Source: Sarcomyxa edulis (Eukaryota; Basidiomycota; Agaricomycetes; Agaricales; Mycenaceae). From it: a stretch of 35,599 bases of DNA. Both the position numbers and the translations under genes were made by a program. Numbering within the stretch: the stretch's first letter is position 1; each line of letters opens with the position of its first letter. Location of the stretch: assembly GCA_009761415.1 (NCBI GenBank), contig QUOL01000038.1, forward strand, positions 1 to 35,599, given 5' to 3'. Of this stretch, positions 4,726 to 19,965 are shown one piece after another. The notes under the pieces were generated by a model. It ran no database searches and was not told the origin of the DNA. It saw only the letters and a list, made by a program, of their open reading frames with translations.

Positions 4726-5376
4726 AGCAGTCCGAAGCTTTCCTTACACCTCATCATCTCATATCCACCTCGCCACCGTTTTACACACACATTTATTCAA
4801 ATACAAGTCACTGGGCATTAGGATTTCTCGCTACGTAAAATCCCCTCCGAGAAAACGTCACCTTACCCCCCTAGAGGCGAACTACAGTTAGGAGTCTAGC
4901 ACATCTACTCCTAGCGCCGCAGTCCTCACCACACCAATGTCTCAATGTTCACATCACCACTGCAGTCCATGGCCCGCAATGGAGCGCCGTTCATATGGCG
5001 CTCTGTACACACTCACTGCCTGGAAGGTATAAAGCAGTTGGCGTCTTGGACGCCCATATTGCGGCCCGTGGATATCCGGATAGACGAACGCATATGGCTT
5101 ATATGGAGCCATGGTGGTAATATATAGTCTAATAGTCCTGGCTGTAGCCAGTGGAAATTATTCATTAAGCATGGCTGTAGCCAACCCTGTGGCTGTGCAC
5201 ACTTCCAAGAGGTCCAGCACCCGATTTTCCCTCAGCTTTGTCAGCCAAAGTCCGGGACCTCTACCCAGGCCTTACACATGTACAAATAGAAGACCATGAA
5301 TATAATAATAATAATATTCGGGCAGGTAGGCTTCCTGTACAAAATGAATTCTATTAATGGCTCTTCTTTGTTGGCT

Positions 5377-5951: not shown

Positions 5952-8900
5952 TCAATTTCGAACCTTCCAAGCAAGGATACCCTGAAGCACCCAACCTACA
6001 TCAATGACAGCCTCTTCCCAATCAAGAACAGGGCCTGTGACCTTCACCCCGTCGACTTTGCCCTGGACCGAACATCCCCACCAATAAAGGCAGGCAACAA
6101 CCCCAAGGAATCCGTTGGCTCCAGGACAGTCCAGCGTATCCCACTCGTCACCATACTCCTCCACCTCCGAAGGCCAGTCAGATGAGTTGTTGAGGCGACA
6201 CCATTTCGGCTGTAACGAGATCCACCATGCACGCCATGTCTTTCCAAACGAGATTGTATCAGTGACTAACGTCGACGCACCACTGCGGCCCCGTCCATCC
6301 ACGATCCAAACTGTAAGTTGTGCCGGTCTTCCAACTTTCGGGAATCCGCGTTTTCCGTTCTTGAACCCGTTGCAAACTTCAGAGACTAATAAGTAGGCTC
6401 AATAGCCCGCGGAAGGGTTCCCCAGATCGTTGACCATCAATAGCGCTACCGGCAGCTTCAGCCAATTAGGTGCATTATCGGGTACCTCGGTGTCGATATC
6501 TTCCCCAGCAGAATTTTGTCGCGACTGTCGAGATGTGGCCTGCTACTGGAGGGCGGGTTGCGAACATCCTCGCCAGGGGAAGATGATGTTTCACCGTCGA
6601 CGGCGGTGGAATCACTGACGTTCGGAGGGGGACGCTGACACCATCACTGGCAGGAGCATTTTCGACGTTGGGAGCAGAAGATACCTCGGCATCTGAGGTT
6701 TCAGGGTCGATAGTCGTGCCAGAGTCCACCCCAAAGTTGCGAACATCAGATGGTGGAGGGGTTTCAGAACTGAGGGATGAATGATTTCCAATTCTACACG
6801 AGGGTCGCGAACACCAGGACGAGAGTTGGGAGAGCCAGGGACTGCATGATTGCCAGAGGCAAGACGAGGGATGCGAACGTCGGAAGAAGCGGGCTCGTCA
6901 ATGGGCGCGGATGCACGGGTTCCACGGGTCGAACAAGAGGTGCGAACATCAGGAGAGGGGCTCCTTGACGTCGTCTGAATGCCTTCAGCGCCTGTATCCA
7001 CGTCCATACCTGTGACATCTATTCCTCCCACTACAGTCTCAACCTCGCCCTGCGACCGATCGCCGTTGTTGTGCGGTCCACCCATAGTATCCACTGGCTC
7101 GCCCATCTCGTCTCCTTGGTTTTCAGGTGTGTCCCCGTCGTTCAGTAACATCGCGTCGTCTCCGTTCGCGCCTGAGCCCATCTCTTCCCCATCTTCCATG
7201 GATTGTGGGTTCTTCGAGCCCCGTGTAGACCGCCTTAACGGTTCTATCGGTGCAGTTGCTTGCTTCCTCCTTGGCTTTGGCCTTGGCGGCGCAGCGTCTT
7301 CCGAGACGTTTCTCTTGCCAGATATAATGTCGGCAGCGTGCCTAATGTCGAGTTCGTCCAGAAGCAGCTGGTTCCTCGCTAGATTCGCGTTTCTGATCCT
7401 TTCGTACTCAGATATTGCGGGTTTAGGTTGGGGAGTACTCTGGGAGGGATAGCGTGGGACGTTGAGGCTTGGGATGTGGATTTGGATTTCTTCGTCGCCG
7501 TTGTCTTCACAATTGCGACGGTGGTGCTCTTGGTCGTCATTTTCCTCCCTGTTCCAGCGTCAGCCTTGTCTCCCGCCTGCATCCGCCTTCTCTTCTTCGA
7601 TCTCATCTTTGCCGCCTCCTCTTCGCTATCGACCGCGTCGTCGTCGTCATCGTCATCGTCGGATGACGATTTGCCATCCGAATCGCTATCGTCCAGCACT
7701 ACATCATCGTCCTGTCCGTCCACATCCATGCGGTATTTTGCTTGCAGCAATGGGTCGTCTAGAGGCAATGCTGCCGCAGCTTTGTCTTCTGAAGCTAGAT
7801 CGCGTTTCGTCAGCCTTGTATCTAGACACCATGCAGAACGGCTGACTTACTGAAGCATGTTTGAAGATATCCTTCGAACAATGCGCTCACGCCCCTTTGG
7901 AAGCGTTCAGGCTGCCATCCGGCGAACGTTACAGGATTCGGCGACTTGTTGACTGATCTCGTTATACTGAGCACGTTCACGGATAAGTATCTTCGTTTGA
8001 TTGATATTTGAACAAAAACTCACGTCAAGGACCAATTTCCCCCCTTGGTCTGGCATGCACCCACGACAAGTACCACCAGATGCATGCCTGTAAAGTCCTT
8101 CACTCCTTCGAAGATTGGAGTGAAGAATGCTCCAAGCCGATTGATACATCTAAGGAATTCTTTAATTATTTGAGTTCGAATATACGCGGACTAAACAAGA
8201 GCTTACCTTTGTCGGTCTGCTGGTGCTTGCGAGGGCGGGGTAGACATGGCCAATTTATATTCTGCATTCGCCTGGTCACGGTCTGCCTCTGCCTTGGCCA
8301 CAAACAATGCCTTTCGCTCCTCCGGTAAAGTATCATACAGCTCTTTTGCGATTTTACAACGAAATGCAGTAGTGGGATTCCCACTGATGGAGGGGTTTGC
8401 AGCGACGTGTTCTGCCCAGCGTTCCACAACGGTCAAATGGATCTCCTCCTTCTGGCACTCGTGCATATACTGTTGATAGCCCTGGCGACGTTTTTGGGGA
8501 GGTGCCTTGATACCGGAGAGCTTGGCCATCAGTAGCGCTAAGGGATCGTCTTTGAAGTTGACGCGTTTGGCCATCGCGATCTTCTTCATCCGCTGCACTC
8601 GATACTGGAGCCAACGTCGAATGGCCTGATGGGATTGGCATCGGTCAATACTACTGCTACACATCGAAAGAAAAAAACTCACCTTATTTTTCTGGCGAAT
8701 ATAATCTCCACGCGCGACCTGCTCTTCTGCTGTTAAGTCCTCTACTACAGGGGGTTCGTTGATGTCGTAGACGGGCAGCGGTAAGTCTGGTTCTTCGTCG
8801 TCTGAAAGTCTCCAGGAGATGAGGGTATGATATTCGTTGCAGATACGATTGAAATAATCGCGTTCGGCGGTCCACCCAAAGCGCATAGAATCTGCGTACT

Positions 8901-9003
8901 TCTCAACGTGAGGTAAGAGAATCGTCTCACGACATCCTTCGGCCCACAGCTTCTGATTGCGGCGGTCCTTTTTAGGGATGCGCTTGTACTGTCGTTTCCC
9001 CAT
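5952..9003 (-). pseudogene. TE-associated multi-exon gene with HMG-box-like region, C-terminus decayed
   Basis: Starts at ATG 9003 (MGKRQYKRIPKKDRRNQKLW). Exons in order are 9003-8683, 8625-8207, 8149-8024, 7966-7851, 7788-7520 (or 7511), and 7439 onward. Three introns are exactly 57 bp, one is 62 bp, and one of 71 or 80 bp (acceptor at 7440, weak donors GTGAAG or GTCGCA) keeps the frame. Residues about 149-234 (RRQGYQQYMHE to YKLAM) resemble an HMG box. Later come a WQPERF motif, an acidic Asp run (near 7640-7660), a basic KKRRRM segment, and SEYERIRNANLARNQ. The family tail (APNWLKLPVALL, GRPAQLTVWI, WWISLQPKW, YWWGCSV) is recognisable down to 5952. However, the low-complexity linker needs three same-direction frame changes (about 6775, 6625 and 6505), and a TGA interrupts the tail at 6401-6399. 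The family is a repetitive agaric family often near transposases. The DNA-binding role is inferred. Confidence 0.7.
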
Positions 9004-9270
9004 CAGATTAGACGCCCAAGAGCGCTTATGTACACTTAAGAGTGCTGGAGTCTATCTTCAGTCGTGTCATTTATTGAGATGTACGAGACACTCACGATTG
9101 CAACAATATACACCTGACGCTGATCTGAAGGATGACTCTCGGATGCTCCCTTTCGATTCTAGGGCATACTCGGACGATATTGACCACGTGCGCCAATGCT
9201 GAGCCTTTGAACTCCGCTCGAAACCCTGATAATCACCTCAGATCAGATAACGACTTTGCTTCAGTCCACG
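9004..9270. promoter_or_regulatory. divergent intergenic region (putative bidirectional promoter)
   Basis: A 267-bp gap separates the head-to-head starts at 9003 (minus) and 9271 (plus). It has no clear TATA box. Its position makes it the only place for both promoters, and shared regulation of the two genes is an inference. Confidence 0.35.
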
Positions 9271-10619
9271 ATGGACCTCCTTGTAGCGTACACTAGCGCC
9301 ATGTCTCTCGACTCCTCTTCCCCACACAAATACTGCACACCCGTGTATTATCCTGGAGCGTCCCCACGGAATTCTCGCTATTACGTTGTGACGTTTGGAC
9401 GTGTCACTGGATCTTTCGGAGCTGGTAGTTCTTTTCTTCTATCTTATATTAGCACGATACTGATCTATATCAAGGCTTATTGTCGAACCTCTCGTCCTCG
9501 GTTTCTCTGGCAGTTCTCACAAGAAGTTCAGCACTGCAGAGGAGGCGGTTGAGAGATGGCGCGAAAACTATCTCATACATCACGCCAGCGGAATCACCAT
9601 CCAGAACTTGCCGAGATTGCAAAAAGGAACGATAAGACTCCTGTTCTGCCTGCTCCTGTTTCTCTCGAGGAACTTCGTAAAGAGGCCATCCGGCGTCAAG
9701 TCCGTCCAGCGACACCTCCTCTGACTCCCACCAAACCACCTCCTACTTACGAAACCTCAGCTTTCACCACCCCTTCAACCCCAGTCAAAACCCCGCTACC
9801 TGTGTACATCCGTTCTGCTTCACCAACTCCCGTCCGTCGTACGTCTACAAAACCTGCCCGCCATTGCTCACCCCCGGATGTCAATGCACCTTCGCCTGCC
9901 CGGGGTGCTCCACCCATGTCAACTCCCACAAGACTATCTTCGTCAGTATCTGGGAAGTCTTGTTTGTCGGCGTCGTCTCCGGTGCAGCCATCGTCAGGCC
10001 CAATCAGGGATTCATCGGAGGGAGTCTCTCGTAGCTCCATTCAGCCTACAACACCCCCCAGTTCCATTGCTTCCTCTACTTCTCTGGTTGTTCGACCCCA
10101 GAGCAGGCCTGTGGTGCGTAGGCCTCCGAGAAACGTTTATGGGGTGTCTTTTGGGTCGTTCCGTAATGCGATATCCAATAATCGGTGCGTATAACATTCA
10201 CTCACATTCACTCCCCTACTCATGATCTGGATCTATGGACAGAGAGTCGGCTTATAGCCTGTATACTCTATTTCGTGACGCGCAGTGCCAGCCGGGTTTC
10301 CATGTAGGTCCTCTCGAGGAAGTCGTGGCGGACATCACAGCAGGCTGGGAAGACACATTCTTCTCGTTCAATCAGGGCGAGGGCGACGTCCTCACCTATT
10401 CGAACTTGTACGTGTCTTGTCTCTCCCTCTTCTTGCGCGTAGATGATACTAATCGTGACCTGTAGCAACCTCGCCCGCGCCAAGTTTGAACAACTCTGCA
10501 CGTTTTCGGACACCGTCGAAATGTTGCTCGACGAAACGCTCCAAGGTACAGAGAGGCACGAGGAGCACAATTGTGAAGACCACGGCTGGAGAAACTGCCC
10601 TGAGGGTGTCAGCATGTAA
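9271..10619 (+). CDS. protein with split viroplasmin/RNase H1 N-terminal-like domain, Pro/Ser-rich
   Basis: ATG at 9271 opens a frame with RYYVVTFGRVTGSFG (near 9380-9421). After a probable intron (GTAGTT at 9425 to CAAG at 9474) a different frame continues VEPLVLGFSGSSHKKF then TAEEAVERWRENY. Together these match the two halves of the viroplasmin-type RNase H1 N-terminal domain (YVV-GR...GFSG...KF-T-EEA). The join is one base out of frame, and another frame change is needed before the Pro/Ser-rich stretch (9556-10184), so this part may be damaged. Downstream splicing is clean: intron 10185-10242 (58 bp) and intron 10408-10465 (58 bp), ending at TAA 10617-10619 after a charged helix (LARAKFEQLCTF). 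It is divergent from the gene starting at 9003, with 267 bp between them. The domain binds RNA/DNA hybrids in RNase H1; no RNase H catalytic domain follows here. Confidence 0.5.
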
Positions 10620-11280
10620 CATTGTTAGACTCATTGTGCAGTAAACACGCCTCGCAGTGCTTTTTTTCCCAATCAAATAGCTACATTTTGTAGCACACAT
10701 ATATACCTTTATCCCATCTCTCCAGAACAAGTTGTCCCACCTTCCCAGGTTCCATTGACCTGCGACGTCATTGATGAAGCAAAGACTTAGACATTGAGCA
10801 CAGTTGTGTAAGTAAAACATGAGATTCTGCGAAGGTAGGGGCTGTAGAACAGCTTCGCGACCCAGTCCAATAACATGTAGTCCAGCTTTCGGATTGGTCC
10901 CGAGCACGACACATATCCTCAGTGAAGTTACATTCAACCATCTTCTTCTTTCTCATTCTTGCCGAAGCACAACACGCCGTGCTCAACGCGTTCGTACACC
11001 ACCCCTCCCTATACCATACGGCGCAACCAACTCGTGGTACCGATAACTGTCGCACCCAACGAAATGGGGTACACTTCCTGCTAGCATTGAAAGGCTAAGT
11101 ACATCAGTCAGTCGACCATTTGACGTATCCAGCTATGCGCACATACCGCACATACCATTGAGAGCAACAGCCAATGCTCCCAGGAACGATGCTCTGAACA
11201 TTGGCGTTGAAGATCGGTGTGGAAGATTGGAGTTGAAGATCGGGAGTGTTGCGAGTGTTGAAGTAATGATATAGCACGCA
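10620..11280. other. intergenic, no gene seen
   Basis: Short overlapping frames occur on both strands (for example 10449-10937 minus and 10819-11046 plus), but none shows domain motifs, intron signals or consistent composition. This stretch presumably holds the 3' end of the gene at 9271-10619. I see nothing else that I can support. Confidence 0.4.
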
Positions 11281-11598
11281 TGACGAGTGTGGGGAAGCAT
11301 AAGATATATATGAGATGCAGTTGTTTCCGCCAGGTGCGTGTAGTTTCAGTGCCCTATGAAACCGACAGAAGACATGTTAGCAGCTTTGCTACGACGCGCC
11401 TTTTGTATATATATCACAATACCTATGACCGTAAACATGACGAGTGTGGGGAAGCATAGGATATACTATATGAGATGCAATTGTTTCCGCCAGGTGCGTG
11501 TAGTTTCAGTGCCCTATGAAACCGACAGAAAGACATGTTAGCAGCTCTGTTACGACGCGCCTTTTGTATATATAATACAATACCTATGACCGTCAACA
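11281..11598. repeat. 157-161 bp tandem duplication
   Basis: Unit 1 (11281-11437) and unit 2 (11438-11598) both start TGACGAGTGTGGGGAAGCAT and share TTTCCGCCAGGTGCGTG, CCCTATGAAACCGACAG and TACGACGCGCCTTTTGTAT. The copies differ by a handful of substitutions and small indels. The duplication lies directly upstream of the minisatellite and of the gene at 11939. Confidence 0.85.
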
Positions 11599-11654
11599 TG
11601 AATCGAAGATGGAGGAGGAGGTTGCAAAGACAGTAACGAATTGGCTGCAAACAG

Positions 11655-11802
11655 ACGCGAACGAGATGCGAACGAGGTGCGAACGAGGTGCGAACGAGGT
11701 GAGAATTGGGTGCGAACGAGATGCGAACGAGGTGCGAACGAGGTGCAAACGAGGTGAGAATTGGGTGCGAACGAGGTGCGAATGGGTGCGAACAGGTGTC
11801 AA
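11655..11802. repeat. 11-bp minisatellite (GTGCGAACGAG) with 55-bp higher-order period
   Basis: About a dozen units of GTGCGAACGAG and close variants (GATGCGAACGAG, GTGAGAATTGG). The block starting GATGCGAACGAG at 11665 recurs at 11720, giving a 55-bp higher-order unit of five 11-mers. The open frames through it on both strands are by-products of a repeat that lacks stops. Confidence 0.85.
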
Positions 11803-11938
11803 GTTGCGAACAAAAGTCGTGAACAAGCGCCGAATTCGTCACTTTTTCCATGCATTGCCCTTAGCACTTGTCAAACGCACTTTCATCTGTCTTTGCTCTT
11901 TGCTCTCATTCACTCACCTTCTTTCTCAATTCTTTCTC

Positions 11939-13084
11939 ATGGCATCTTCACCTTCAAGAAGGCCAAAAAAGGCAAAACCCAAAGCCAAAGTCAAAAACAA
12001 GAACAAGAACAAGTCAGCCTCGACTGAAGCAATGGAGACATCGAAGTCGAATAGGTCAAATAGTAACTCGGGAAGCGATAAGAGTCGGTCTGCTAGGAAA
12101 AGTGCCCTATACTATTCAAAGTACGTCGTTGTGACTTCTCCTATCCATGACATCTCTCATCAATGATCTACTAGGAACGGAGCGATGCTACGAGAAAAGG
12201 CTAAGCTTCGGATGCGTGATTATCGTGCCGCTCGAGCAACAGCGACGCAACTTGACACTCCTGCTCCTGCTGCCCATCGACACTCCACCCAAGCTCCGCA
12301 ACCTGACACTCCTGCTCCTGATGTCCAACGACACTCTACCCAAGTTCCTCAAACTGTAACCCAGCGTGAATCTACATTCAGCCGCTCCCAGTCCTCCCCT
12401 CTTCCAGATGATTTGACCCCAGAACCGTCTCCGTCTCCCGGTCCTTTTGCATCTCAGCTTCCTCGTTCCCCTCGTTCTCCCACTCCTGATCTCCCAGCTC
12501 CTTCCCGATCTCCATCTCCAATTCATCGCTCGAGAAGAGTAGACGACCAATGCATAGATCCTCGTCTCCGATCCACGCATATGGAGCTGGAAGATATCGC
12601 CCTACAAGGTGTTGACCTCGATCTCGTATTCGACCTTGAAACCCTTCCATACGAGTTCGACATTGACAATTCCGACATCAATATTCACTTTGATCGCGTC
12701 AACCTGCCGCACAATCTCGACGTCATGGATCATTTTGATCCTGAAGACGAATTCTACATGGTCACTCATAGGCGATGTGTGGGGGAATGGGCTAGTCGAT
12801 GGGGGCATACATCGTGTTGGGCGCAGGAAATCAAAAGCAGCTATCATCAGCTTCGTACGGAGCTGCAACGGGAACAATTCGCATGCACTGTAGGCACCCA
12901 CGCCTACCAGGGCCGCATCATCGTCCGTCAGCTTACCGGTATATTGGATGTAAGACCTTTTCCGAAGGAAGATTGGCACCTGAGGGAATTATGGAGGACT
13001 TCAATGGAGCTGTTGGAACCCATCTATCGTGGGCTTGCTATCATCGATGCTTGGTTGGACTTTTTGCGCGTAGTCTCCGTATAA
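11939..13084 (+). CDS. intact TE-associated protein with basic helix
   Basis: Two exons, 11939-12120 and 12175-13084, with a 54-bp intron (GTACGT...CTACTAG). The product is 363 aa. Residues about 9-60 are Lys/Ser-rich and nuclear-signal-like (KAKPKAKVKNKNKNK). The intron splits a basic helix (SARKSALYYSK then MLREKAKLRMRDYRA, about 52-80), which looks like the DNA-contacting helix seen in other repetitive agaric families. Then follow two 17-residue repeats (DTPAPAAHRHSTQ, DTPAPDVQRHSTQ; DNA 12254-12304 and 12305-12355) and a Pro/Ser linker. The C-terminal region is acidic and then globular and Trp-rich (CVGEWASRWG, DWHLRELW, IDAWLDFL). No disabling mutation is seen. ATG 11939 follows a CT-rich leader. 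The function is unknown; a DNA-binding role is inferred. Confidence 0.65.
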
Positions 13085-13191
13085 CATTCATTCTGGCGTC
13101 TTAACATAGATTACCCCTGTATCGAGTCAAAAAAGTGACATTCATTCTGGCGTATTGACATAGATTGCCCCTATATCGAGTCAAAAAAGTG
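13084..13191. repeat. 54-bp tandem duplication at the stop codon
   Basis: ACATTCATTCTGGCGT at 13084 recurs at 13138, and the two 54-bp units differ at only four or five positions (for example TACCCCTG versus TGCCCCTA). The first unit begins in the TAA stop codon of the upstream gene. A B-box-like GAGTTCGAATCC lies just beyond at 13220-13231. Confidence 0.85.
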
Positions 13192-13423
13192 GACGCGTCG
13201 CGCACGTGATCGTGAATCTGAGTTCGAATCCTTGTTTGACTTAAGTAAATTTTTCGTTTCCACTGCCACCATACTGTTACTTCGTCGTCTTGCTATCACA
13301 TCCACATTCTTCAAACTTCAACCAGCTGGGACAGTGGGGCCATAGCAGGCACCAACCGTCGTAAGTCCCTTCTAAATATATTTAGGCCAACGACCTGAGT
13401 AACCCGTGCACTGAGCCTCACCC

Positions 13424-14682
13424 ATGGGTACTATGGCGGGGAGCTCAAGGTTAAGGGCTTTTTGCCTTCTGCTGGTCATTGTACTGCACTTACTACTCCC
13501 TCCCCTTCTCTCACAGGCAAGTCCAGATAATGACTCGAACAGTAAGTGGCCACTTTCCACAACAACACAGCATGCTGACACCTACGCGTTTTAGACGCGT
13601 CAGGGGACAGAATTCTTGCCCTTCTCAATGGACACCACGTCGAGGATACTTCCTATACGCGCAAACATTCAGTTGGACTCCTTGGCTTGACGTGCAAGGC
13701 AAGAGGAGATATCTCGAGAAGTACAAGGTGTGGGGGATAATGAGGGTGTTTTTTTGTCGTACGGGTCACACTGTGTCTCTCCCGCAAGGTCGAGATCTTC
13801 TTCATTGTCCTCTCTTTCTGACTGCCTCTCCGACATGTCCGTTGATCGCGTCGTGGAAGTCGCCCCCCATAGCCCTCCTCAGTCAATGTCAGATGACATC
13901 GACACGTCTTTCGTTCCTCCGGAGTCAAGCTCCCCAATTCCCAGCTCACCTACTCAACGCTCGTCGTTCTCCATGTTGCGCTCAGTCTCCCCCATCTCGT
14001 TGCCATCGCGCTCAGCGTCCGTCATGTCTTGTCCGACATTCCCTGTCCCAAGCTTGCCGTCCGTTGCCAAGACAGCTGGCCACTCGGTGGAGCGAGCGCG
14101 TGCAAGAAGGCAAGCACGTAAACGCTGTCACCAGAAGGCAATTAAACGGGCGGAGGACGCTCTGCAGTCCTCTTCCGCTCCTCGGTATCGTGTACGCTCC
14201 TCTACGTCAGTCAAGTATTCAAAACCTATCGCCATCAAGTCATTATTCAGCATTAAGAATATGCCTACCACACACGGGTCATTCACCGGGTTACGCCAGA
14301 AGGTGGTGAGGAAAAGGCCCTTCCAATTGGACGAACTCTTGGACAAGGGTTTCAAGCTTCGCAAGTGGGACGGACGGTCAGCTTTAGCACTCATCGTTGC
14401 CCTCCGTGACTGACATCTGCAGCCTTCATCAGAGACACACACGTCATAACGGATGTAGGCCAACGCATCATGGTCACTCTCGTAGGATATCCCAAGGACA
14501 ATCCCTCTTCGCGTTCAAAGCCATGGGCTGGCGTAGCAAGCGGGGCCGCTTCCATTATTGATACGACTCGTACACAACAGGGCATCTCTCCACGTCGCCA
14601 CCGTAGGGGTAATTTTGCGGCTCTGGCATGCGGCGTTTCATACGGCGGAGGCCAAGAGGTGCGAAGCCTGAGCAAACGATAA
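13424..14682 (+). pseudogene. truncated TET/JBP-type dioxygenase gene (N-terminal region only)
   Basis: Exons 13595-13727, 13789-14376 and 14433-14682 join in frame, with introns 13542-13594 (53 bp), 13728-13788 (61 bp) and 14377-14432 (56 bp). The 5' start is unresolved: ATG 13424 gives a hydrophobic run that may instead be the pyrimidine tract of an earlier intron ending at CACAG 13516. The product has a Ser-rich N-terminus, a basic RARARRQARKRCH segment, then QLDELLDKGFKLRKWDGR, TDVGQRIMVTLVGYPKD and finally HRRGNFAALACGVSYGGGQ (14599-14655). That order matches the region upstream of the double-stranded beta-helix in the expanded basidiomycete 2OG-Fe(II) TET/JBP family. Those enzymes oxidise 5-methylcytosine and are associated with KDZ transposons. 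The HxD...H iron-binding core is missing because the frame ends at TAA 14680-14682. Confidence 0.6.
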
Positions 14683-15068
14683 ATACTCAACTTAGTCATC
14701 AGGCATGGGGGTTTCTGAGGGGGATTTCTTTCCCATGGGGGGTTTCTAAGTAGAATAATCCTGTAAGTTAGTTAGTCCCAGGATTTAGCCACTTAAAAAA
14801 TTTTGATGGGATATCCCAAGGGGGGGCACCGGCAAACGCCTAGACCAGAGGGAGGGAGGAATAAATCTTAAGCAGGAACTTACTTTTGGGATAGTATGAG
14901 GCTGTATTGAAGCTTATTTACTGTATTAACCACAGCCAAGGCGATTCAAGTTCCACTCAAAAAGAACACAAAATTGTCGTGATTGGTGGCTACGTGGACC
15001 ACGTGGAGTTTCCTAGTAGAGCCGTCTTAAAATTATAATTATGTTCCTTCATCAAATCTACGAACCGG
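14683..15068. other. non-coding gap after truncation point
   Basis: G-rich words (GGGGGTTTCT, TTTCCCATGGGGGG) and AT-rich DNA without coding signals replace the expected catalytic part of the upstream gene. This is probably the junction of another element. No terminal repeats were recognised. Confidence 0.4.
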
Positions 15069-15436
15069 ATGGCGAAGGAGAAGAAGTTGACTCAGGTGAG
15101 AGTTTTTCTCTCACTACCAGGTATCAAGGGTGCACATCAGTTGACGATTCACATACTTAGCCTCCTCAGTACAATGCAGACAGCACCCGATACTGCGAGA
15201 CTTGTCTGACAGACATCAAAGTCGGATTCGGTGGCAAAACAAACTTGGAAACCCATCTTACAAGTATCACCGAGAACTCATATTGGAACCTCGCCCAGGC
15301 CTGGATATCACAAGTTTCTTCAGGCGCGTAGACCGCCCGAGTCGTAACGCGCAACCAGTTTCTGAGCCAGGACCTCCCCCACTTTTCAATTATGTTGTAC
15401 CTGGCTTCCACATTCAAGTTCTGTCAATAAATTCAA
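15069..15436 (+). pseudogene. C2H2-type zinc-finger TE-associated gene, 5' fragment
   Basis: ATG 15069 encodes MAKEKKLTQ, followed by a 65-bp intron (15096-15160). Exon 2 then reads YNADSTRYCETCLTDIKVG, a C-x2-C knuckle with a GG-xxN motif followed by ETHLTS. The matching second half (KYHRELI then DITSFFRRVDRP and PVSEPGPPPL) is in the next frame, so there is a frame break near 15258. This arrangement, a C2H2-like single finger followed by an SFF motif and a proline-rich tail, recurs in agaric repetitive proteins. The fragment stops where the MITE at 15437 begins. Confidence 0.5.
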
Positions 15437-15720
15437 TAGGGTGTTTCACACCCATCCAACTTTGGCCCAACTCGATCTCCAACTTCGTCTCAAATTTTGC
15501 ACCAACTTTGACATCAATTCTGGTAAATCCTGCGTAAAAAAAAAAATCTGAGTTGGGGAAATGAGTGGGAAGGCAAAGTTGGAGCAAAGTTGGCTGTCAA
15601 ATCGGGCTCGGGAGCACGACTTCATCCCAACTCGCAAAGTTGGAGGATTTCAGAAATCGAAGTTGGGGATTCGAGTTGGGCCCAAGTTGGGCCCGAGTTG
15701 GCCAGGTGTGAAACACCCTA
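15437..15720. mobile_element. MITE, TA target site, 14-bp perfect TIRs
   Basis: The ends read TAGGGTGTTTCACACC (15437-15452) and GGTGTGAAACACCCTA (15705-15720), perfect inverted repeats flanked by or including the dinucleotide TA. The subterminal parts are also mutually inverted and rich in CCAACTTTGG/AGTTGGGCC words. Total length is 284 bp with no coding capacity. A TA target duplication and small size point to a Tc1/mariner-type (Stowaway-like) non-autonomous element. Confidence 0.85.
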
Positions 15721-15799
15721 ATGTATTCTGGGGTTTTGAAACCTTCCCAATCCAGCCGTAACAAAATTGGGACCCGGCAACAATGTTCCCATGTGACCC

Positions 15800-17554
15800 C
15801 CCCCAACAGGAATGAGGCTCAAGTTGGCTTGCAACCCCCGTCTCTCCCTCTCTAATCCAGATGAATTGACTTGACAAGCTTCAGAACAAAGGTAAACGCG
15901 GTCTGCAGGGGTCAGAACTGCATTTATGAACCTCTGAACATTGTTCCTCTTGTACATTGTGTGCGTATTGTGTTGGCTGAGGCTCATGCGAGGTGCACGA
16001 CGAAACACTAACTGTAAGCTTCCTAATGCACCTTCATTGACATCATTGGTAGCAGGTATCCATACCCGGTCTTTCTCTGCCTGTGTCATCCCAGAAATTG
16101 TGCCACCTGCTTCAAACTCACTACAGAATCGACCTCAGGTTTCTAGAGCACGGTTAAAAAATGCTATGAGACAAGGCTTGAGGTGCGGTAGGGAGCTGGA
16201 CATCCTCTGTACTGCATAAAATACCTCTGGCCTCTCTCACGGCTTTCCATCCAGTGCCCCAGTTTTAAAAGAGGCATCTGCTGCAAGAAGAAGCTCCAGT
16301 TTTGAGATAATAGCTCGACAGTGAGCCTTTACTTTCTCGTGAAGTGGTCCAAGCTCCAAGGCATTGATTTGTTCCGCATATAAGGATGGCTTAATGCCTG
16401 AGAATACAGACCAAGGACAGATAGTTCAGTGAGTGTCGAAATGTCTTTGAGTCCATTGAAGACATTGGTTTCCATATGATTGAAGGTGCCACTCTCATTT
16501 TTATTGGGCACAAGCAAGAGAAAATCAAGATAGAACGGAAGGTGAACCAGGAGTTCACCTGCTGCCTTGCAATGCGACTGAAAGTGTGTACTGCTTATTC
16601 CCGGAAATAAAATTGGATAGCCAAGCTGATGTTCAAAGTGCATCTGGTATGTGTCTTGTTGTCCTTTTTTATCATCCTTGTGACGGAAAATTGCCCCTGC
16701 TAAACTCGTCAACTTTACCCCTCCACTTTGAGAGGACTCCAAAGCATTATCCCAAGCCTTAGATGGACCGGCGGCGGCAGCGGCGGTGTTTTCCCGATTC
16801 ATTAACTTAATTGGACCAACTAATCCAGCTTTGTCCCAGAATTCAGACATTGCCTTTGCGCCACCCTTCACGGAGTTCATTTCCTTCTGCATGCAGCACC
16901 CAGCCCATACAAAGAGCTGGGCTTCATGTTTCTCAGCGTCCGATAACGCTCCCCATGCCTTGTCACCAAACCGAAGGCAAATTTGGTTGTAGGTCTTGCG
17001 ATCATGTCAATCCTTCTCAGCCTCAGAGAGTGCGTCCCATTCAGCCTGTTCTCCAGCCTTGTTGATGTTACGCTTGTTCTCTTCCCAAACAACGGTAACA
17101 ACTCCCCCAGTGGAGTTTTGTGCATGAGCCTTTCACCGTGGAGCGCCTGAGTACAGAACTGCTTCCATTCCTCCATCAACTGAGCAAGCTTCTTTTGATC
17201 TTCTGCATGGTCGGACCCTAATCCCAATATATAAGCAGCAAAAGCGAGAGCATTTGCGGGGATCTGGTGACCAAGAGGACTTTTGTTGTACGTATGGTAG
17301 AAATTGTTGTGCAGAATCTTCCATCTCTCTAATTGTGTTTTACTTGTATGGTCAGGGCCCGATGTGATACCACAGAAACACAATTTTGGGACATTTGTAG
17401 AGCTCTCAATTGGGGTTGGCTGCTGTACGTGCACCCGCAATCTACTGGCCGTATTCTGAGTTGGCCGATCCAGATTATACAAAGGAACTCGAGTCGTTAT
17501 ATGCTTCGCTTCATACGGGTTATGTCTAATCTTTGTGCCGTCACCGCTCGTCAC
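15800..17554 (-). pseudogene. degraded agaric TE-associated gene (WDKAGLVGPI family)
   Basis: Reading down the minus strand: LERWKILHNNFYHTYNKSPLG and GLGSDHAEDQ and EEWKQFC (17350-17150), WDALSEAEKD, VWAGCCMQKEMNSVKGG, FWDKAGLVGPIKLMNRENTA (16800), SLAGAIFRHKDDKKGQQD, YSQALSHPYM, then PATNDVNEGALGSLQL and MYKRNNVQRF near 15940-16040. I recall this block order from a highly repeated agaricomycete family of unknown function. It is broken by a frameshift near 17085, by stops at 17009-17007, 16239-16237 and 16137-16135 (the last two TGA where the family has Trp), and by another frame change near 16375. No functional product is possible. Confidence 0.7.
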
Positions 17555-17599
17555 AAAGCCTGTGTCAATATAAGCAGGATATCGAAATTAAGTAGTGCC

Positions 17600-19249: not shown

Positions 19250-19965
19250 GAGCCGTCTCATCTCCTTCTCTAGCGTCTCGTCTTCTTCACCCTCACATAT
19301 CCTTTCCCGTCCTCTGATCTCATTTCCCACCTTCCGCCGTCTCGTCTCATTCTCCAACGCCTTGTATTGTTCCCTACCGTCTCGTCTTGTGTCGTCTTGT
19401 CCGAGTGGATTTGCTTGGATCATTGGTGTTCCCCGGCATCTCCACTTATTCCCCGACCTCTTGTCTCATCCCCCGCCTCTTGTCTCGTTCCTCGGCATCT
19501 CCTCTCATTCACCCGTCTCGTCTCGTCCCCCCCTCACTTGTCTTGTCCCCCCCTCACTCGTCTTGTCCCCCCCTTGCTCGTCTCGTCCCCTCTCGTCTCG
19601 TCTCGTCCCGTCCCGTCCCCTCTCGTCCCCTCTTGTCTCGTCTCGTCCCCCCCTCTCGTCTCGTCCCCCCCTCGCTCGTCTTGTCCCCCCCTCGCTCGTC
19701 TCGTCCCTCGCTCGTCTCGTCCCCCCCTCGCTCGTCTCGTCTCGTCCCCTCTCGTCTCGTCTCGTCTCGTCCCCTCTCGTCCCCTCTTGTCTCGTCTCGT
19801 CCCCCCCTCTCGTCTCGTCCCCCCCTCTCGTCTCGTCCCCCCCTCTCGTCTCGTCTCCCTCTCATCTCGTTCCCTGCTTCTCGTCTCAATCCCCTGCCTT
19901 CTCTTATCTTGTTCCCCCGCCTCTTGTCTTGTTCCCCACCCCTCGTCTCGCTTTGTTTCACAAGC
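19250..19965. repeat. (CTCGT)n/CCCC minisatellite, about 700 bp
   Basis: Built from TCTCGTCTCGT and CCCCCCCTCGCTCGTC units with local higher-order duplication. The block around 19573-19672 is repeated around 19725-19820. Plus-strand composition is almost free of A. Long open frames in all three plus frames and one minus frame (Arg/Glu/Gly/Asp-rich) are a consequence of the stop-free repeat and are not called as genes. Confidence 0.9.

Follow-up and report, generated by a model that had tools for sequence, protein, structure and literature searches.

A truncated TET/JBP-like gene and its paralogues

The DNA analysed here (the window) is a stretch of 35,599 nucleotides from Sarcomyxa edulis and comprises the whole of contig QUOL01000038.1, denoted C32, in an assembly of 40 contigs and 35.6 Mb. 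It carries the front part of a TET/JBP-like gene, preceded by companion genes that also accompany related copies elsewhere in the genome. The gene fragment itself consists of the following features.

13530..13541, + strand: TET-like exon 1 (MTRT), placed by alignment with the paralogues on C27, C1 and C2
13542..13594, + strand: TET-like intron 1, GTAAGT...TTTTAG, from the paralogue alignment
13595..14376, + strand: TET-like exon 2, ending in ...KGFKLRKWDGR and containing an in-frame TGA, from the paralogue alignment
13688..13690, + strand: TGA stop that interrupts the conserved frame in phase at its codon 36, from the paralogue alignment; also in C33
14377..14432, + strand: TET-like intron 2, GTCAGC...CATCAG, 56 nt, from a frame test and the paralogue alignment
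14433..14658, + strand: TET-like exon 3, ...VGYPKD...HRRGNF...GVSYGGGQE, from a frame test, genome matches and the paralogue alignment
14659..14661, + strand: truncation point, at the splice donor of a third intron now lost; similarity to the paralogues ends here (blastn)

The motif order that an earlier note on this DNA had read from the + strand (KGFKLRKWDGR, VGQRIMVTLVGYPKD, HRRGNF...GVSYGGGQ) is present as described, with VGQRIMVTLVGYPKD and HRRGNF...GVSYGGGQ both encoded in exon 3 (14433-14658). The same note had joined three exons in frame, and this arrangement stood in part: exons 2 and 3 do join through CATCAG, the only one of two acceptors tried that keeps the frame (TGCAG was rejected as out of frame), but the opening exon at 13424 was rejected and the start placed at 13530, the position conserved in alignment with three paralogues. 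The ATG at 13424 is not conserved, being absent from the copies on C39, C40 and C28, and it sits inside a conserved non-coding element described below. Three paralogous copies share these intron positions in the alignment, and the identity of close paralogues to the window gene is 62-84% for individual exons. The note also overlooked an in-frame stop: at 13688-13690 the window has TGA, against a sense codon in each of the three aligned paralogues; in the sequence this TGA breaks the conserved frame, with a consensus error possible. After the TGA an open frame spans both exons to VRSLSKR-stop.

The TGA recurs in contig C33, which matches the window at 99.77% identity from 7485 to 17490, the 10 kb that were compared, and is probably either redundant with C32 or allelic to it; judged by offset, C33 is likely to overlap the entire left half of the window (1 to ~17770) and to reach further left. 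Short homopolymer-type indels distinguish the two contigs, and exon 3 contains two of these, so the consensus of these contigs is imperfect. A second such pair consists of C27 and the end of C1 (99.7% over 9.4 kb), and the locus counts given here therefore include duplicates.

In blastn, similarity to the paralogues extends to 14660 or 14661 and no further in each of the five loci compared (two on C1, one on C27 and two on C2). The earlier statement that the catalytic core is gone was borne out: tblastn with a paralogue core gave chance-level matches alone in the window (best E 0.91), and the HxD...H Fe(II) triad and the arginine that binds 2-oxoglutarate (2OG) are missing from this copy, the region past 14661 being gone. 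To look for a core or 3' portion that had moved further along the window, the C27 downstream sequence to 16500 was compared with it; the sole match was an unrelated 97-bp repeat (5109-5205). The stretch from 14661 to ~15430 matches only C32 and C33, save for a 55-bp repeat; the junction at 14661, like the TGA, is common to both contigs, and none of the genome matches paired a near-identical 5' half with a core.

Identity of the family and its KDZ association

Searches of the assembly returned 36 exon matches at E<=0.01, the window itself and C33 included, which is beyond chance. The family is expanded, as had been proposed. The full-length paralogues with HxD...H that the note had called for were found and carry an HxD...H...R core, as do the homologues; best paralogues devoid of a 2OG-Fe(II) domain were looked for and did not occur. 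CcTet, NgTET and TET2 came first in the structural comparison, far ahead of FTO, AlkB-type proteins and PHD2, and the double-stranded beta-helix fold of the family lies nearest the TET proteins, which upholds the TET/JBP-type identity. The link to TET entries in the PDB came through fold comparison alone and not through sequence. The relative P0001 scored 21.5 bits for Tet_JBP (PF12851), below the gathering cut-off of 34.9, and a precomputed PF12851 assignment was present in 3/85 homologues. Since the family scores below the Pfam cut-off, standard annotation would easily miss such TET/JBP-like genes. The protein relatives with a named source organism come from mushroom-forming fungi.

KDZ (Kyakuja-Dileera-Zisupton) transposase was sought with the PF18758 profile, and 93 rows, the best candidates being the only ones scored, were listed genome-wide, none of them on C32 or C33. 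For comparison we used 47 of the 93 rows, hand-picked as the main row per locus, and 24 core loci, derived from 26 rows by merging two rows of one C1 locus and dropping a weak C14 row. KDZ lay within 5 kb of 18 of the 24 core loci; ~1.3% of the genome is within 5 kb of a KDZ row. The proposed KDZ association thus holds for the family, although the window contig itself has no KDZ match. In 13 of the close loci KDZ follows downstream in the same orientation, 1.7-3.1 kb away, and in the other 5 it is divergent and 3.1-3.3 kb upstream; when three apparent duplicate pairs were merged (C27 with the C1 end, two C2 loci, and C4 with C39:1.62 Mb), proximity became 15/21. In this genome the TET/JBP-like family is real and expanded, and it is linked to KDZ transposase. 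Three further genes of the window belong with it.

8203..9051, - strand: HMG-like companion gene exon with a divergent HMG-box-like C-terminal part, from own-genome matches and a structure search
9553..10194, + strand: open reading frame with a counterpart in the equivalent position of the C27 copy, another element gene (unclassified), from blastn synteny
12167..13084, + strand: ORF-U, companion gene directly upstream of TET, from 17 own-genome rows

The HMG-like gene has 24 rows in the genome, lies ~3-6 kb upstream of TET in close copies and also occurs near KDZ without a TET match (C34, C38, C40 and C4). It has no Pfam match, and its AlphaFold2 model is weak (mean predicted local distance difference test score 55.9), with C-terminal helices above 80; the top Foldseek matches obtained with this weak model were HMG boxes (E 0.17 and above). 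ORF-U, which has no Pfam or NCBIfam match, immediately precedes TET on C27, C19, C32 and C33 and in two copies each on C1 and C2. It is likewise found close to KDZ where TET gives no match, C34 and C38 being examples. Comparison of the copies shows the order of an intact close unit to be the HMG-like gene (divergent), ORF-U, TET and KDZ transposase, of which the window retains the HMG-like gene, ORF-U and the front of TET.

Synteny with C27 covers 7613-10604 in three blastn pieces (71.5-77.6%), the C27 open reading frame being at 6049-6846, and neither window 9553-10191 nor its C27 counterpart has a Pfam match. The element gene at ~9480-10194 (+) starts GFSGSSHKKFSTAEEA and presumably resembles a viroplasmin / RNase H1 N-terminal domain, which Pfam did not match.

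KDZ TET+ transposons of Agaricomycetes were reportedly described by Iyer and colleagues in 2014, and these elements are said to include an HMG-like companion gene. Like them, the present family has a TET/JBP-like gene beside KDZ transposase in many copies, plus companion genes; unlike them, the window copy lacks the transposase and the TET core. Kojima 2025 (PMC12730594), which also concerns KDZ TET+ DNA transposons, proposes that the TETs of transposons help in escaping methylation silencing. We compared the family with CcTet of Coprinopsis cinerea (PDB 7vpn, 7w5p, 8jkk), to which it has no sequence-level match, in a register counted ungapped from HxD rather than by a residue-by-residue structure check. 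HxD was present in 44/44 homologues, Asn occupied the position of CcTet Gly331 in 44/44, and Cys stood in place of CcTet Asp337 in 43/44 (one gap). The Asn corresponds to hTET2 Asn1387, which, according to PMC11040006, gives preference for 5-methylcytosine (5mC) over N6-methyladenine (6mA). The family thus lacks the Gly/Ser at CcTet 331 and the Asp at CcTet 337 of AG-type TETs, and has HxD where PE-type TETs have HxE; judged by the residues stated in PMC12730594, its sequence is neither AG nor PE. Six other loci of the genome (on C14, C12, C9, C4, C37 and C30) match PF12851, none above the cut-off; by profile they belong to one superfamily with the family, but they have HxD..D in 6/6 instead of HxD..N.

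Probable decay of the window copy and alternative explanations

We consider it very probable that a transposon-like unit associated with KDZ and bearing a TET/JBP-like gene survives in the window as a 5' half, without core and transposase, and that the gene is now a pseudogene. The comparison shows that everything 3' of the third TET exon has been lost at ~14661, and with it the transposase and that half of the enzyme which binds iron and 2-oxoglutarate; the premature TGA additionally breaks the TET-like frame. Because the 3' part is lost and the TGA breaks the frame, we infer that the window gene is a recent pseudogene from which no working enzyme is made. The ratio of non-synonymous to synonymous divergence (dN/dS) is 0.12-0.20 between the fragment and the paralogues and comparable, 0.11-0.21, between one paralogue and another; the changes specific to the window show no excess of amino-acid replacements (32:31 versus 29:23). 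Measured against the divergence of the copies, the loss is therefore probably recent, although dS is near saturation (1.1-2.4) and the ratios are rough. The broken copy is an instance of ordinary transposon decay; elements of this kind are known, and this copy is dead or dying. Where the gene is intact, its enzyme would oxidise 5mC on or near the element, so that silencing would be relieved; 5mC oxidation by intact members is most likely, judging by the TET fold, the HxD-H-R residues and the published CcTet biochemistry (PMC11040006).

Several observations weigh against this reading. The Pfam Tet_JBP match is weak (C27 at 15.8 bits against the cut-off of 34.9) and was obtained at E<=0.01 in just 11/44 homologues; searching PDB by sequence with profile A1 returned no TET at E<=10, and PDB sequence searches with the C27 protein and with two exons of Tet_JBP loci returned no TET entry either. 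No KDZ lies within 5 kb of 6/24 core loci, nor of any of the six PF12851 loci (0/6), and the transposon-like unit is delimited by gene order in its copies, not by terminal inverted repeats or target-site duplications at its ends. The sub-threshold Pfam scores, together with weak 2OG-FeII_Oxy_3 matches (C27 at E 0.12; 1/44 homologues), would also suit a different 2OG-Fe(II) oxygenase family, but we regard this as very unlikely in view of the lead of CcTet, NgTET and TET2 over FTO, AlkB-type proteins and PHD2.

The low dN/dS also fits a fragment under continuing selection, as would apply if it were still expressed as a short decoy or DNA-binding regulator, running from the ATG at 13835 through the open frame after the TGA to the stop at 14680-14682. 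The earlier note had raised such a protein as a possibility, citing clean splice sites; however, exon 2 contains the TGA, which severs the conserved upstream start, and the last exon ends at the donor at 14659, with no family similarity downstream. The retained part corresponds to about residues 1-293 of the predicted model of P0001, mostly a low-confidence N-terminus and some catalytic-domain strands, whereas the remaining strands and every Fe/2OG ligand are lost; according to this model, it supplies strands of the catalytic domain and not an independent domain. As low dN/dS can also date from before the loss, we find a functional short protein very unlikely. An assembly or consensus error at the truncation or the TGA, with an intact gene at the locus, is very unlikely too: the homopolymer-type indels between the window and C33 would be compatible with it, and C33, being likely redundant, is possibly not independent support, but both lesions are present in both contigs, the sequence following the junction matches these two contigs alone apart from the 55-bp repeat, and no intact counterpart of the 5' half was among the genome matches. 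The explanation that we retain is thus a decayed KDZ-associated unit.

A conserved element upstream of the start and other features

One further feature accompanies the family.

13397..13450, + strand: conserved non-coding element with a predicted hairpin, 54 nt, 80-133 nt upstream of the TET start, from identity, pattern search and covariation

This element lies in matches of 88-94% identity, against 70-76% for neighbouring coding matches. A genome pattern search allowing <=3 mismatches gave 11 matches, all just upstream of members of the TET-like family, and none for the reversed pattern. Seven distinct copies fit a 17-pair hairpin with 95.8% of cells paired; four pairs show double changes, a number reached by 6/500 shuffles, the covariation score was equalled by 0/500, and slid versions drop to 35-46%. 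The hairpin model, scanned over 53 loci rather than the whole genome, found two upstream copies outside its training set, at C2:1.21 Mb (54.7 bits) and C39:0.85 Mb (26.7 bits); two extra places at 12-14 bits were weak and treated as noise. With nine copies, in an alignment fitted to the model, eight pairs show double changes. Arguing against the hairpin, the window element folds unremarkably on its own (z -1.25, 25/200 shuffles as good), the count of further pair types was matched by 49/500 shuffles for seven sequences and 81/500 for nine, the copies are related, and the model had no match in five paralogue loci with 1.5 kb past the matched exon (L030, L032, L033, L035 and L036). The Tet_JBP loci gave no model match either.

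Against Rfam, the window gave nothing above gathering thresholds and 13300-13600 nothing at E<=5; the hairpin was found neither among the listed results of full-text literature searches nor by terms within PMC12730594. We tentatively suggest, as a possibility that we do not favour, that the hairpin is an unreported cis-regulatory RNA or hairpin DNA controlling the demethylase of the transposon and that the family, with its TET2-like Asn, lies outside the PU, AG and PE types and prefers 5mC over 6mA. If real, the hairpin would offer a handle on how a transposon controls its anti-silencing enzyme.

Beyond the break, the window contains a further element.

15437..15720, strand not assigned: unrelated small inverted-repeat element with TAGGGTGTTTCACACC termini, downstream of the break, from its termini and copies elsewhere

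Copies of this element at 89-92% are present on C38, C4, C15 and C1; it has a probable TA duplication and resembles a miniature inverted-repeat transposable element. Gene fragments of an unclassified family follow at 15718-17587 (-), with three open reading frames without a Pfam match, and sequences resembling the part at 15827-16150 are present on C38 (87%) and C13 (73%). Two tandem arrays were also observed, one of ~13 copies of an 11-bp GCGAACGAGGT unit at 11657-11798 and one of ~18 C/T-rich 20-bp units at 19517-19863.
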